Positions 54,275 to 58,474 of a stretch of 64,000 nucleotides of DNA are shown here, piece by piece. How positions within the stretch are numbered: position 1 is the stretch's first letter; each line of letters begins with the position of its first letter. Both the position numbers and the translations under genes were made by a program. Source of the stretch: Methyloversatilis sp. XJ19-49 (GTDB taxonomy: Bacteria > Pseudomonadota > Gammaproteobacteria > Burkholderiales > Rhodocyclaceae); assembly GCF_024580145.1 (NCBI RefSeq), contig NZ_JANINI010000001.1, positions 191,550 through 255,549 of the forward strand, written 5' to 3'. The notes under the pieces were generated by a model, which was not told where the DNA came from, made no database searches, and saw only the letters and a program-made list of their open reading frames with translations.

Positions 54275-56353
54275 CTAGAAGCGCCAGCGCAGGCTGGCGT
54301 AGCCATTGCGTTCGGGCATCGGGTAATAGGTTTCCGAAAAGGCGATGGTCGAATACACCTTGTCGAACACATTGTTGATGCCGGCCGCCAGTTGCGCACC
54401 GCCGCCCAGATCGAGGCGCAGCGCAAGATCGAACACCGTGTAGGACGGCAGTTCGGCGAAGCTGCGGTTGTCGAGGTCGTTGCCGTCGAAGCGCCGACCG
54501 GCGTGGCGCGCGGCGACGATCCAGCGCAGCGACGGCGTCTGCAGCCACTCCGCACGAGCATTCGCGGTCCAGCGCGGCACCAGCGGAATGTCGGCGTCAG
54601 TGCCCTTGAAGCGTGGCTGCACATACCCGGCGTTGGCAGCGAACAGCCAGGCGGCCGACGGCTGCCAGCGCGTTTCGAGCTCCACGCCGGTGCGTTGGGT
54701 CGGCAGGTCGTAATTGCGGTTCACGCTCGGCACGCCGGTGCTGTCGAAGTAGATTTCATCCTGGTTGCGCAGGCGGAACAGCGTCAACCCGAGCGAAAGA
54801 CTGTCGTCGGGCTGCAGGCGCACACCGGCTTCGATCGTGCGACCGCGCTGCGCGCGCAGATCGGACGACGCCAGCGCCAGTTCGTCGATGTTCGGGGTGC
54901 GGAAGTTGCGCGACACACTGGCAAAGGCGACCAGCGCCTTCACCGGCTGCCAGCTCACACCCAGCTCCGCAGCATGGCTTTTCGTGCTCGACGCGTAGCG
55001 GCTGTCAGATTCGAAGCCGGTGACGCAACTGCCCGGAATTTCCACCGGAATGAAGCCCAGTCCCGGAATGAACACGTTCTGGAACTGGCAGGTGCGCCGA
55101 TAGGTGGCTGCTTCGGTGCGGCTTTTCGTGTCATCGCTGCGCCAGCCGGCGTTCAGGCGCAGCGCATCGGTCGCGCGGAACACCGTCTCGGCATACCAGG
55201 CCTGACCGTTCAGGTCGCCGGTACGCACTCTTGACTGGTCGATCACGGTGCGGCCGACGTCGCGCCGCAGGTAGTCGGACGACTGCGTGACAAAGCCCGC
55301 ACCGAAAGAATGGATGCGGCCGAAGGCGCTGTAGTCGAGGTCGTAGCGCAACTGCACGTCGCGCCGCGTCGATTCGATCGTGTATTGCTGATCGCTGAGC
55401 GGCTGTGCCGGATTGACACCGATCAGGTAAGGATTGTCGCGCGTACGGTGGTCGGTCTGGAATTCGACCAGACCGAAATCGCCCAGATCGAAGCGCCACA
55501 GCGTGCCGAATTTGCGGTCGTCGGTGCTGCCGCCATCCAGCGGCGACGCCGTGCTCGAACGACGCAGCGCAGCACTGCCGGACAGGAAGCGTTCGCGCGA
55601 CACCGGACCGGGCAGCTTGTATTCATCGGTGTGGCGCGACACGCGCAGCAGCACGTCCATGAAGGACAGCGCTCCGTCCGGCATGATGCGCAGTTCCGCC
55701 GCTGTATCGCGCCGGCGCTGTTCGTCGTTGTCCCGGTAGCCGTTGCCGTCGAGCCGCCCGACATCGATGCGGCCAGACAGGGGCCCCGCGCCGCCGGACG
55801 CGCTGAAGCGCAGTTCATGCGTGTCGTACGAAGCGGTGCGCGCCTCGAATTCGCCCTTCAGCGGCCCGTTGCGCGGACGCCTTGTCAGTACGTGGATGAT
55901 GCCGCCCACAGCGCCGTCACCGTAGCGCACCGCGCCACCGCCACGCAGCACTTCGATGCGTTCGACCTGGGACAACGCGACCGACGACAGGTCGGCGCCT
56001 GACAGATCCGATGCGTTCAGCCTGACGCCATCGACCAGCACCAGCACATTACTGACCGCCGTGGCGCCGAAGCCGCGCATGTCGACGGTGGCACCCTTGT
56101 CGCGGCCGAAATAGCTCTGGATGTTGAGGTTGGCTTCGCGACCCAGCACTTCGGCCACGGTGCGCGATGGTGAATGCTCGATGTCTTCGGTGGTGATGAC
56201 GGACACGCTGTGCGGCACCATGCGCAACGTGTCGGCCGCCGACGGTGCGCTGATGACGACTTCGTCGAGCTCGTGCACGCGCGGCGCCGAAGCCTGTGCA
56301 AGGGCCAGGCCGGGCAACACGGTCAGCAACAGCAAAAGGCGGAAGCGATGCAT
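54275..56353 (-). CDS. TonB-dependent outer-membrane receptor, BtuB-like
   Basis: A 692-residue outer-membrane transporter. Signal peptide (MHRFRLLLLLTVLPGLALAQ). A TonB-box-like segment (HELDEVVISAP), plug domain (SVSVITTEDIEHSPSRTVAE, LVLVDGVRLNASDL, LSQVERIEVLRGGGAVRYGD, VGGIIHVLTRRP) and 22-strand barrel ending in SLRWRF follow. It is the last gene of an operon with two PEP-CTERM proteins under a cobalamin riboswitch, so its substrate is probably vitamin B12 or a corrinoid; this comes from context, not from residues. ATG at 56353 has been used; a TTG sits one codon earlier. Confidence 0.9.
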   Translation of the reverse strand: MHRFRLLLLLTVLPGLALAQASAPRVHELDEVVISAPSAADTLRMVPHSVSVITTEDIEHSPSRTVAEVLGREANLNIQSYFGRDKGATVDMRGFGATAVSNVLVLVDGVRLNASDLSGADLSSVALSQVERIEVLRGGGAVRYGDGAVGGIIHVLTRRPRNGPLKGEFEARTASYDTHELRFSASGGAGPLSGRIDVGRLDGNGYRDNDEQRRRDTAAELRIMPDGALSFMDVLLRVSRHTDEYKLPGPVSRERFLSGSAALRRSSTASPLDGGSTDDRKFGTLWRFDLGDFGLVEFQTDHRTRDNPYLIGVNPAQPLSDQQYTIESTRRDVQLRYDLDYSAFGRIHSFGAGFVTQSSDYLRRDVGRTVIDQSRVRTGDLNGQAWYAETVFRATDALRLNAGWRSDDTKSRTEAATYRRTCQFQNVFIPGLGFIPVEIPGSCVTGFESDSRYASSTKSHAAELGVSWQPVKALVAFASVSRNFRTPNIDELALASSDLRAQRGRTIEAGVRLQPDDSLSLGLTLFRLRNQDEIYFDSTGVPSVNRNYDLPTQRTGVELETRWQPSAAWLFAANAGYVQPRFKGTDADIPLVPRWTANARAEWLQTPSLRWIVAARHAGRRFDGNDLDNRSFAELPSYTVFDLALRLDLGGGAQLAAGINNVFDKVYSTIAFSETYYPMPERNGYASLRWRF

Positions 56354-56406
56354 CAATGCGCATCACCCGCGAACCGTGGAGGGCGCGCGGGTGATTCCTG
56401 GACCGA

Positions 56407-57207
56407 TCAGCCGCGACGGCGACGCGCGACCGCGCCGACCAGCGCCAGACCGGCCAGCAGCAGCGCTGCCTGTTCCGGTTCCGGCACCGCGGTGACGGTC
56501 AGATTGTCGAGTGCGAAATAGGCCGGCGTGTTGATGCCGAATTCACCGCTGTCGCTCGAAACCAGCGCGAACTGCAGACTGCTGACCGTGCCGAGCGCCG
56601 CGAGATCGACCCAGCGCCAGTCGGTCACCACGTAGTCCTGCGCGTTGTCGGCGAACCGGTAGTCGGCCAGCATGAAGTCGACGCTGCCGGTGGTCGCACC
56701 GCCACCGTCCTTGCCGATGATGGTCAGCTTCAGATAGTCGGGGTCATTGCCGCTGGCGCCGCCGAACTTCTTCGAGAAGCCGAACACGGTGTCGCCGTCA
56801 AGCATGGTGCGTCCGGTGAACGTCGTGTTGGTGACGTACGCACCCTGCACGCTGACCGCCGACGCAAAGCTGATCGTCGGCGCGCCGAAGTTGGCGATCG
56901 CGTAATGGGCCGATCCGTCGACGCCGCCGCCGGTGATCGCGCTGTGCTGGTTGGTGTAATTGCCGGTCGTCGTGTCGGTGCGGTTGGAATACACCCAGTC
57001 AACATGGCAGCAGCCGCCGCCGAAGTCCGAGTAAGTGTGATTGAAGGTGGCGGCTCCGCTGGAGAAGGTGGTCGTCACTTGCGGGAAGAAGTGGCTTTCG
57101 GACGCCAGCGGCACGTCTTCGAACGTGGCAACCGAGGGCGTCGCTGCATGCGCGCCATGGCTGACTGCCAGTGCGCCCAGCGCGAAGGCGAGAAGTGTCT
57201 TGTTCAT
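56407..57207 (-). CDS. PEP-CTERM protein with DUF4465-like domain
   Basis: A 266-residue exported protein. Signal peptide (MNKTLLAFALGALAVSHGAHA). The body has the beta-rich DUF4465 appearance: VATFEDVPLASES, SGGAATF-type loops, DWRWVDLAALGTVSSLQFAL and GEFGINTPAYFALDNL. The C-terminus carries the PEP-CTERM sorting signal VPEPEQAALLLAGLALVGA with an Arg-rich end, for processing by exosortase and anchoring at the surface. DUF4465-type proteins of Bacteroidetes associated with B12 loci bind cobalamin at the surface; a similar role here is inference from the riboswitch context. Middle gene of the operon. Confidence 0.85.
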   Translation of the reverse strand: MNKTLLAFALGALAVSHGAHAATPSVATFEDVPLASESHFFPQVTTTFSSGAATFNHTYSDFGGGCCHVDWVYSNRTDTTTGNYTNQHSAITGGGVDGSAHYAIANFGAPTISFASAVSVQGAYVTNTTFTGRTMLDGDTVFGFSKKFGGASGNDPDYLKLTIIGKDGGGATTGSVDFMLADYRFADNAQDYVVTDWRWVDLAALGTVSSLQFALVSSDSGEFGINTPAYFALDNLTVTAVPEPEQAALLLAGLALVGAVARRRRG

Positions 57208-57240
57208 GTCAGTGATCTTTCGTGGTGAGCTGGGGCGGCA

Positions 57241-58038
57241 TCAGCCGCGGCGACGGGCGACCAGACCGAGCAGGCCGAGTGCGGCGCAGTACATCGCCCA
57301 TTGCGACGGCTCGGGCACGGCCGGCAGTGCCGCGTAGTGGATGACGCCGACCGCGTCGAGGTCGAAGCCGCTGCTGCCGGTGGTCGGATACGGGTCGTAG
57401 ATGGGGTGCGGGCCGCCGAATTGGGCCGGGAAGCTGTCGAAGGTCGAGCCATTGCCGACGACATCGATCAGGCGCACGTACTGCACCTTGTTGACATCCA
57501 GACCGGCGACGCCGCTCAGCACATCGAGATCGAACGGCGTACCGAAGCCGGCGCGGTACTTGCCGGCCAGACCGTCGATATTGGTCGGGTCGATCAGGCC
57601 GAAGCCGCCGACCGGGCTGGCGGTGAAGGAGAAGTTCGGAAAGCGGAAAAAATCGGTACCGTTGGACGACACCTCGACGAACGCCAGTTCGAGGAAGGTG
57701 TCCATGAAGCCGTTTTCGAACACCGCGAAATCGGCGCCCGCACCGTTCGTGATGTAGCCGCCGAAGGTGAGCGTGATGCTGCCGCCGTCGCCGAGCACGA
57801 CGATGTCGGTCGCGCCGCCCTGGGCAACGCCCAGTCCCTTTTCCGGCGTTTTCCACGTGGCATCGACGTTTGCGCCCGGCAGGTAGTCACGGTAGCCGGT
57901 CGCCCACTGGACGAAAGCCGGACTGTCCTTGCTGATGGCCGTTGATCCGGGCTGACCGGCGGCCGGCGCGAACGGGCCGGCCTGGGCGGAGCCGGCGAAT
58001 GCCAGCCCGATGAGGGATGTGAGAAGAATGGTACGCAT
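57241..58038 (-). CDS. PEP-CTERM cell-surface protein, first gene of B12-regulated operon
   Basis: A 265-residue exported protein. Signal peptide ([20 protein letters not shown]). The body is a beta-rich domain with [47 protein letters not shown] and [18 protein letters not shown], a pattern of so-called cell surface proteins in cobalamin-linked loci. The end [20 protein letters not shown] with RRR is a PEP-CTERM sorting signal. The ATG at 58038 has an ideal AAGGAGGT site. Function is not known; corrinoid capture is the best guess from context. Confidence 0.85.
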
Positions 58039-58192
58039 GCAGACCTCCTTGCAGCGCCGGCAGCACCCGCCGGCGAATTGCGGAAATCCGATGATCTGAA
58101 ACGAACGGGAAGCGACGCACGACCTGCGCGGAAGAACGACCGGGCAACGGAAATACGCACCTCCGCCGCCCACCGCAGCCATCGGTCAAATG

Positions 58193-58386
58193 CGTCAGGC
58201 CGGTCTCCGGGCTCGCGAGGGAAATGTGCGATCCGCCTTCCCATGCATGGCGCACAGTGGCTGATTGGATCGCTACGACTCGCTTACCGTTGCGGGGGCA
58301 GCGCCGGGATCGCGACCTGATTGCAGGCACTCACCGGACTTCCCGTTTCACCCCTCGCAGCGAACGCTGGTCAGGACACCTGAAGC
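58193..58386 (-). ncRNA. Cobalamin riboswitch
   Basis: Read on the minus strand, the 5' part has GTGAAACGGGAAGTCCGGTG (58331-58350 region), then the core CTGCCCCCGCAACGGTAAGC, AGCCACTG, GGGAAGGCGG and finally GCCCGGAGACCGGCC. These are the invariant elements of the AdoCbl/B12 riboswitch in the right order. It lies about 150 bases before the first PEP-CTERM gene, so B12 should turn the operon off. The exact 5' and 3' borders are approximate. Confidence 0.95.
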
Positions 58387-58449
58387 ACGCGCAGGGTAGC
58401 CGTCAGCCTCACCTGTCGTCAATGACAATACTTGATGCAGGGTCAAAAA

Positions 58450-58474
58450 AAACCGGGGCACTCGGCCCCGGTTT
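58450..58474 (-). terminator. Rho-independent terminator after fdhA
   Basis: AAACCGGGGC at 58450-58459 pairs with GCCCCGGTTT at 58465-58474 around a 5-base loop. On the minus strand the stem runs into eight T residues (complement of A-run 58445-58452). It ends the formate dehydrogenase operon 20 bases after the stop codon. Confidence 0.9.

Follow-up and report, generated by a model that had tools for sequence, protein, structure and literature searches.

A stretch of 64,000 nucleotides from Methyloversatilis sp. XJ19-49, referred to here as the window, carries on its minus strand, in the region of positions 54,275-58,386, a cobalamin riboswitch followed by three closely spaced genes. These encode two exported PEP-CTERM proteins, here named P1 and P2, and a TonB-dependent receptor. 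Analysis of the sequence makes it highly likely that they form a B12-repressed operon, in which surface proteins sorted by an exosortase would capture the vitamin and feed it to a BtuB-like receptor. P2 belongs to the DUF4465 family, P1 resembles the BtuH domain of Bacteroides at a distance, and the association of P1 with the riboswitch recurs in 61 of the 80 closest P1 loci.

The riboswitch operon and its DUF4465 protein

The aptamer match spans the full RF00174 model (1-189), with a score to be compared with a gathering score of 31.5 bits (Table 1), and is the only one in the whole 4.1 Mb genome. It encloses the interval 58193-58386, where the original prediction had placed a B12 riboswitch on the minus strand. 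The same prediction of two exported PEP-CTERM proteins and a TonB receptor at tight spacing was also borne out: both proteins end in PF07589 tails, and the gaps measure 33 nt between P1 and P2 and 53 nt between P2 and the ATG of the receptor. The 3′ end of the Rfam match lies 142 nt from the ATG of P1, whose Shine-Dalgarno sequence is a possible target of riboswitch control. Upstream, a terminator-like stem read by eye separates a formate dehydrogenase-like gene from the riboswitch, so that the operon is probably a transcription unit of its own; a sigma-70 scan found no promoter.

P2 is a DUF4465 protein, scoring 167.6 bits with PF14717 against a gathering score of 25. Publications of 2025-26 describe this family as B12-binding (PMC13398666, PMC12751083). 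Eight divergent DUF4465 proteins are described as binding B12, with a conserved B12-contacting tyrosine in the TPxY signature of the HI-loop (PMC13398666). In our alignment, P2 retains the signature and its tyrosine as NTPAYF. The closest solved structures identified by phmmer are 9hmu (1e-25), 9qpm (1.1e-24) and 9fct, which is BtuJ1 (5e-24). P2 also has NTTF where its eight relatives have NTTY, in an alignment that does not fix the residue equal to the DE-loop Y146 of BtuJ1. Family membership and the signature loop suggest that P2 binds corrinoids.

Like BtuJ and other DUF4465 proteins (IPR027828; BtuJ1, 9FCT; D5EK51, 9HMU), P2 combines the family domain and the HI-loop with a position in a cobalamin-riboswitch operon next to a TonB receptor. 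Unlike BtuJ1, it is a predicted binder from a betaproteobacterial host and ends in a PEP-CTERM tail instead of being a lipoprotein. We take the entry IPR013424 to stand for PEP-CTERM. Tails of this entry are borne by 88 of 824 DUF4465 family members (PMC12751083). Open-licence PMC yielded no literature on PEP-CTERM proteins in B12 uptake, and the main text of PMC13398666 mentions neither PEP-CTERM nor exosortase. As regards the original view of a poorly described system, B12 binding by DUF4465 and the IPR013424 tails are already in print.

The genome of the host was analyzed for sorting and for B12 use. It encodes two exosortases over the Pfam cut-off, one of which is XrtA (TIGR03109, 346.6 against 208 bits). 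Together with their PF07589 tails, this gives P1 and P2 the pattern of exosortase substrates and suggests that both are processed by an exosortase and located at the surface. MetH and methylmalonyl-CoA mutase were found over their cut-offs. CbiC was not found in the genome, so that, to judge from this one gene, the full de novo corrin pathway is probably lacking; the bacterium probably cannot make vitamin B12. A permease/ATPase/binding-protein cluster lies elsewhere. For its permease and its binding protein the top-scoring models are BtuC and BtuF, both below cut-off, and its ATPase scores higher with haem and other models than with BtuD. In the same genome, contigs C15 and C16 both carry matches that come in pairs of equal score, separated by about 10 kb, which may reflect a duplicated stretch or a redundant assembly.

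Table 1. Features of the operon in window coordinates
Feature	Position	Strand	Evidence or remark
Rho-independent terminator-like stem and T run	58445..58473	-	Read by eye; absent from pattern-scan output
Cobalamin riboswitch aptamer, RF00174	58181..58398	-	108.8 bits, E 2.5e-26
P1 Shine-Dalgarno sequence, AAGGAGG	58044..58050	-	5 nt upstream of ATG
P1, exported PEP-CTERM protein, probable divergent BtuH-type domain	57241..58038	-	265 aa; mature domain about residues 20-239
P1 PEP-CTERM sorting signal, residues 240-264	57247..57321	-	PF07589, 24.9 bits (cut-off 20.7)
P2, exported PEP-CTERM and DUF4465 (BtuJ-type) protein	56407..57207	-	266 aa; PF14717, E 4.6e-49
P2 NTPAYF loop (HI-loop signature)	56515..56532	-	Alignment; motif as given in PMC13398666
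P2 PEP-CTERM sorting signal, residues 240-265	56413..56490	-	PF07589, 26.2 bits (cut-off 20.7)
TonB-dependent receptor, BtuB-like	54275..56353 (or start TTG 56356)	-	PF07715 Plug and PF00593 TonB_dep_Rec

P1 and the BtuH domain

A Pfam scan of P1 detected no domain besides PEP-CTERM, and the same was found for 74 members of its family, 8 of which extend into the tail. An AlphaFold model of P1, obtained from a 74-row alignment (pLDDT 97.4, pTM 0.93), was compared by Foldseek with 350,542 PDB chains. The first three ranks were 8blw_B (E 4.6e-4), 7biz_B and 7biz_A, with E-values up to 3.9e-3 and TM-scores by query of 0.48-0.49; discoidin and CBM32 folds came next. 8blw_B is BtuG1, the C-terminal extension of which is a BtuH domain (PMC10404256), and 7biz is BtuH2 with B12. 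The best match of the P1 profile among 177,635 PDB sequences was again 8blw, at residues 424-473, inside this H-domain (E 0.022). In the PDB, phmmer with the single P1 sequence found no match and a 9-row profile gave weak chance matches only; a search of a viral fold library found no match at E ≤ 0.001.

To compare the two families, BtuH domains were gathered from Bacteroidota loci, comprising one clear BtuH2 relative (7biz, 1.4e-206) and others 33-48 % identical to it. The hhalign probability of their match with P1 was 75.9 % with six sequences (37 columns) and 86.9 % with ten (41 columns). The BtuH profile matched 73 of the 74 P1 members, as against 4 of 962 shuffles, at E ≤ 10 with the search space set to 1000. 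A 299-residue Bacteroidota protein (L154:988-1884, minus strand) bridges the two families, since it is matched by both the BtuH profile (E 1.5e-4) and the P1 profile (64 bits) and its gene is flanked by those of a TonB receptor (PF00593, E 5.6e-31) and of a propeller that resembles the BtuG part of 8blw (5.1e-20). This protein has no Pfam match.

The likeness of P1 to BtuH2 (7BIZ) and to the H-domain of BtuG1 (8BLW) thus lies in the closest solved structures, in an LG-GG...DF..xNxF stretch and in the genetic setting. Within this stretch, Asn399 and Phe401 of BtuH2 (GNAF) align with FEN-x-F of P1, where the asparagine is kept in 100 % and the phenylalanine in 82 % of the 74 rows, by eye and with hand-counted numbering. 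P1 differs from BtuH in its remote similarity, in having no evident match for most corrin-side residues, in the absence of PKD domains and in its anchoring by PEP-CTERM, not by lipid; by eye, its N-terminal signal stretch has no cysteine. A weak match to the LIC_13355 family lipoproteins (NF033170) was found in 60 of the 74 P1 domains, which likely belong to the same superfamily, and window P1 scores 22.6 bits with this model against a cut-off of 120. To our knowledge, no function has been assigned to the LIC_13355 family. The possibility that P1 is a DUF4465 paralogue was ruled out, as hhalign of the two families aligns the tail alone.

Some results speak against a BtuH-type assignment. First, the profile match covers just 41 columns. 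Secondly, the most divergent P1 copy gave a model (33 rows, pLDDT 80.7) that resembled discoidin/F5-8C folds, and its 50 listed matches included no BtuH. Thirdly, inspection by eye found no evident P1 counterparts of the corrin-contacting residues His476, Tyr510, Trp511 and Trp577 of BtuH2, nor of Gln333. The structure prediction against BtuG and BtuH, proposed originally as a check, consequently gave a divided answer: BtuG1 and BtuH2 chains came first for window P1, in agreement with the profile comparison, and the poorer model of the divergent copy did not repeat this. Weighing the fold, profile and bridging evidence against the divergent-copy model, we regard P1 as quite probably a remote BtuH-type domain, and B12 binding by P1 as likely.

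P1 could instead be a structural or docking partner that binds no B12, leaving the DUF4465 protein to capture the vitamin by itself, which we consider unlikely. BtuK2 and BtuL are precedents, as they are reported not to bind cobalamin despite being encoded by B12-locus genes (PMC12751083), and the remote similarity and unidentifiable corrin-side contacts of P1 would agree with such a role. It is less easily reconciled with the binding of B12 by the nearest PDB relatives of P1, with the alignment of FEN-x-F with Asn399 and Phe401, and with the seven loci, described below, where P1 follows a cobalamin riboswitch and neither DUF4465 nor a receptor was detected.

Conservation and fusion of the partners

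The host's order was surveyed in 300 genomes, its own included, with at most eight P1 candidates scored per genome. DUF4465 is present in nine of them. The P1 profile matched 55 genomes, with full-length matches (4.4e-130 or better) in the same nine; in the other 46, the best E-value was 3.8e-9 or weaker and, among the matches listed, all start at model position 185 or later, in the tail region. The full-length matches exclude that P1 relatives are explained by the PEP-CTERM tail alone. All nine genomes (the window and eight relatives) display the order riboswitch-P1-DUF4465-receptor, and the operon layout is therefore more than chance. The nearest named relatives of P1 lie on Methyloversatilis contigs, with 97 and 96 % identity.

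A wider scan, with one genome per species for 84,980 species, yielded at least 528 P1 relatives. The best 80 loci were selected by P1 similarity alone and hence represent the closest loci and not a random sample; some are on contigs of the order genomes (L025/L002, L029/L008, L034/L009). DUF4465 and receptor calls relied on profiles seeded with the window's family and iterated within these loci. A DUF4465 frame was found in 54 loci, a receptor in 49 and both in 36, always on the strand of P1. A riboswitch model built from nine aptamers detected 33 loci at E ≤ 0.01, and Rfam added 28 among the other 47 (27 RF00174 and one AdoCbl, RF01482). A recheck with Rfam confirmed 20 of 20 model-found loci, and the remaining 13 score at least 88 bits with the model. 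Every one of these 61 riboswitches is upstream of P1 on the same strand. In seven loci, P1 follows the riboswitch with neither DUF4465 nor a receptor detected; five of these loci are 14.9-16.8 kb long and two (3.3 and 8.0 kb) may be cut short.

With P1, DUF4465 and the receptor written as H, J and B, the gene order after the riboswitch varies (H-J-B, B-H-J, J-H-B, B-J-H, H alone and others), as expected for partners held together by function. The strict TPxY signature is found in 61 of the 71 DUF4465 domains of these loci; six of the ten misses were displayed, and five of them have TP-containing loop variants. The loci belong to Pseudomonadota, Verrucomicrobiota, Planctomycetota, Bacteroidota, Kiritimatiellota, Myxococcota, Thermodesulfobacteriota and others, and the P1 family thus spreads far past Bacteroidota, unlike BtuH. 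Among 74 tree rows, 12 phylum-level labels were counted, five of them represented by one row each; many of the contigs come from metagenome bins, in which phylum mislabelling is possible. The labels are clustered on the P1 tree, with 24 changes compared with 43.7 in shuffles and a minimum of 11. Bacteroidota form one clade, and Pseudomonadota and Verrucomicrobiota are split, a pattern that does not prove transfer.

Two observations concern riboswitches near or missing from P1 operons. At L024:2028-2166 (minus strand), a second cobalamin riboswitch (nine-aptamer model, 81.9 bits) precedes the frame of a further TonB receptor and is some 5.5 kb away from the P1 operon. Six verrucomicrobial loci (L039, L055, L060, L062, L081 and L092) have a receptor and P1, five of them also DUF4465, and no riboswitch at the Rfam threshold; they may be regulated in another way or have an aptamer that has diverged.

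P1 and DUF4465 share one frame in 15 of the 80 loci, in either order. Nine of these fused frames are planctomycete and contain DUF4465 two or three times. In a Bacteroidales locus (L086), the fusion is followed by a type IX sorting domain, and a dockerin lies within one planctomycete frame (L057). The planctomycete frames (L045, L047, L057, L063, L065, L069, L072, L073 and L076) exceed 1000 aa and reach 2021 aa, some being cut by contig ends. They follow a cobalamin riboswitch and join one P1 domain to two or three of the DUF4465 type. Their architecture raises the question of whether such giant proteins could act as multivalent B12 traps.

P1 and P2 are separate genes in the window and form one open frame in L003-L007, which represent five of the nine order genomes, and at L030:7944-9488. 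All six fusions keep the internal PEP-CTERM, with two PF07589 stretches each. At the junction, the PEP-CTERM arginines run into a hydrophobic stretch ending in AxA before DUF4465, with a longer linker rich in arginine preceding this stretch in L005. This topology may fit cleavage by an exosortase and a signal peptidase into two mature proteins. Five of the six junctions, however, contain in-frame alternative starts, namely a GTG just before RRRRR in L006 and L007, from which a signal peptide could begin, and candidates in L003, L004 (ATG) and L005 (TTG), which makes internal initiation a serious alternative to a polyprotein; L030 has no early start codon between the arginines and the AxA stretch.

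These data allow a broader proposal, which we put forward tentatively and hold to be somewhat doubtful as a whole. P1 would be the founding member of a family of surface B12-binding proteins that spans phyla and has so far gone undescribed; related to BtuH and lacking a Pfam entry, it would be paired with DUF4465 in a cassette anchored by the sorting system of each host (exosortase, type IX or dockerin). In one betaproteobacterial group, the pair would be made as one polyprotein, in which an internal PEP-CTERM leads directly into a stretch like a signal peptide, and cleavage by exosortase and signal peptidase would yield two capture proteins from it.

A proposed route for B12 capture

In the proposed mechanism, low intracellular cobalamin would allow the riboswitch to permit expression of P1 (BtuH-type) and P2 (BtuJ/DUF4465-type). 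Both would be exported through their N-terminal signal peptides, and their PEP-CTERM tails would be recognized by an exosortase such as XrtA. Once this enzyme had removed the tail, the binding domain would stay at the outer surface or within exopolysaccharide. There, P1 and P2 would bind scarce cobamide and pass it to the co-expressed BtuB-like TonB receptor, and the BtuF/BtuC-like system would then bring it through the inner membrane, to be used by MetH and methylmalonyl-CoA mutase.

BtuH, BtuG and BtuJ of Bacteroides are surface lipoproteins (PMC8941943, PMC10404256, PMC12751083), and locus 1 of B. thetaiotaomicron has the order btuK1-btuK2-btuH1-btuB1-btuG-btuJ1 (PMC12751083). The operon of the window is like this locus in uniting a riboswitch, a receptor and BtuH-type and BtuJ-type proteins. 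It differs in having three genes and exosortase sorting, with no BtuG propeller by Pfam; the presence of such a propeller in the operon was ruled out on this ground. The E. coli B12 system is listed in PMC10404256 as btuBFCD, without surface capture proteins. The original idea that PEP-CTERM proteins replace the BtuG, BtuH and DUF4465 lipoproteins therefore gains from P2 as a DUF4465 member, from P1 as best explained by a remote BtuH-type domain and from the strong partnership with the riboswitch, and finds no support in Pfam as regards BtuG. Its biology is very probably right, namely surface B12 capture of the Bacteroides type, with exosortase sorting and, in P1, a BtuH relative that Pfam does not recognize.

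At the level of the operon, part of the data argues against B12 capture. No riboswitch was detected in 19 of the 80 P1 loci, and 13 have neither DUF4465 nor a receptor, several of them being cut by contig ends. The leader fold is no more stable than shuffles (z -1.31) and revealed no expression platform, and repression by B12 is a prediction. The receptor scores 140.4 bits on the curated B12-receptor model TIGR01779, whose cut-off is 599.7, and 183.5 bits on a siderophore model, also under cut-off. Of the 20 TIGR01779 matches in the genome, all below cut-off, this receptor ranks first, with another receptor nearly equal (105 against 107 bits).

The place where P1 and P2 would act is also debatable. 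Rather than surface partners of the receptor, they might be released into exopolysaccharide or vesicles as shared or distant cobamide traps, an improbable arrangement in our estimation. In its favor, PEP-CTERM sorting is reported to be associated with exopolysaccharide (Haft 2006), BtuJ proteins of B. thetaiotaomicron deliver B12 via vesicles (PMC12751083), and P1 and P2, once cleaved, would keep no membrane anchor. Hand-over at the surface is favored by the encoding of the receptor in the same operon at short spacing, although the sequence data do not indicate the location itself.

As for the receptor, a profile of 17 operon receptors matched E. coli BtuB first in the PDB, with 167.9 bits, followed by the YncD/PqqU group with 153 bits. 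The original description as BtuB-like is thus supported by the closest solved receptor and falls short of the curated cut-off; B12 is the substrate that the operon context suggests. A receptor for siderophore, haem or PQQ, with the riboswitch and the PEP-CTERM proteins in another process such as biofilm formation, would fit the higher siderophore score and the proximity of YncD/PqqU and is very improbable given the closest relationship to BtuB, the constant order in all nine order genomes and the same-strand receptor of this kind in 49 of the 80 loci.

Surface B12 capture, as worked out with the lipoproteins of gut Bacteroides, would thus follow the same logic in environmental proteobacteria, there with proteins sorted by an exosortase. 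We know of few PEP-CTERM proteins with a nutritional role, and the capture route proposed here, if true, would provide one. As 61 of the 80 closest loci have P1 behind a B12 riboswitch, one binding experiment could give a function to the P1 family across 12 phylum-level labels. The system would also help to study how B12 auxotrophs compete for the vitamin in places other than the gut.

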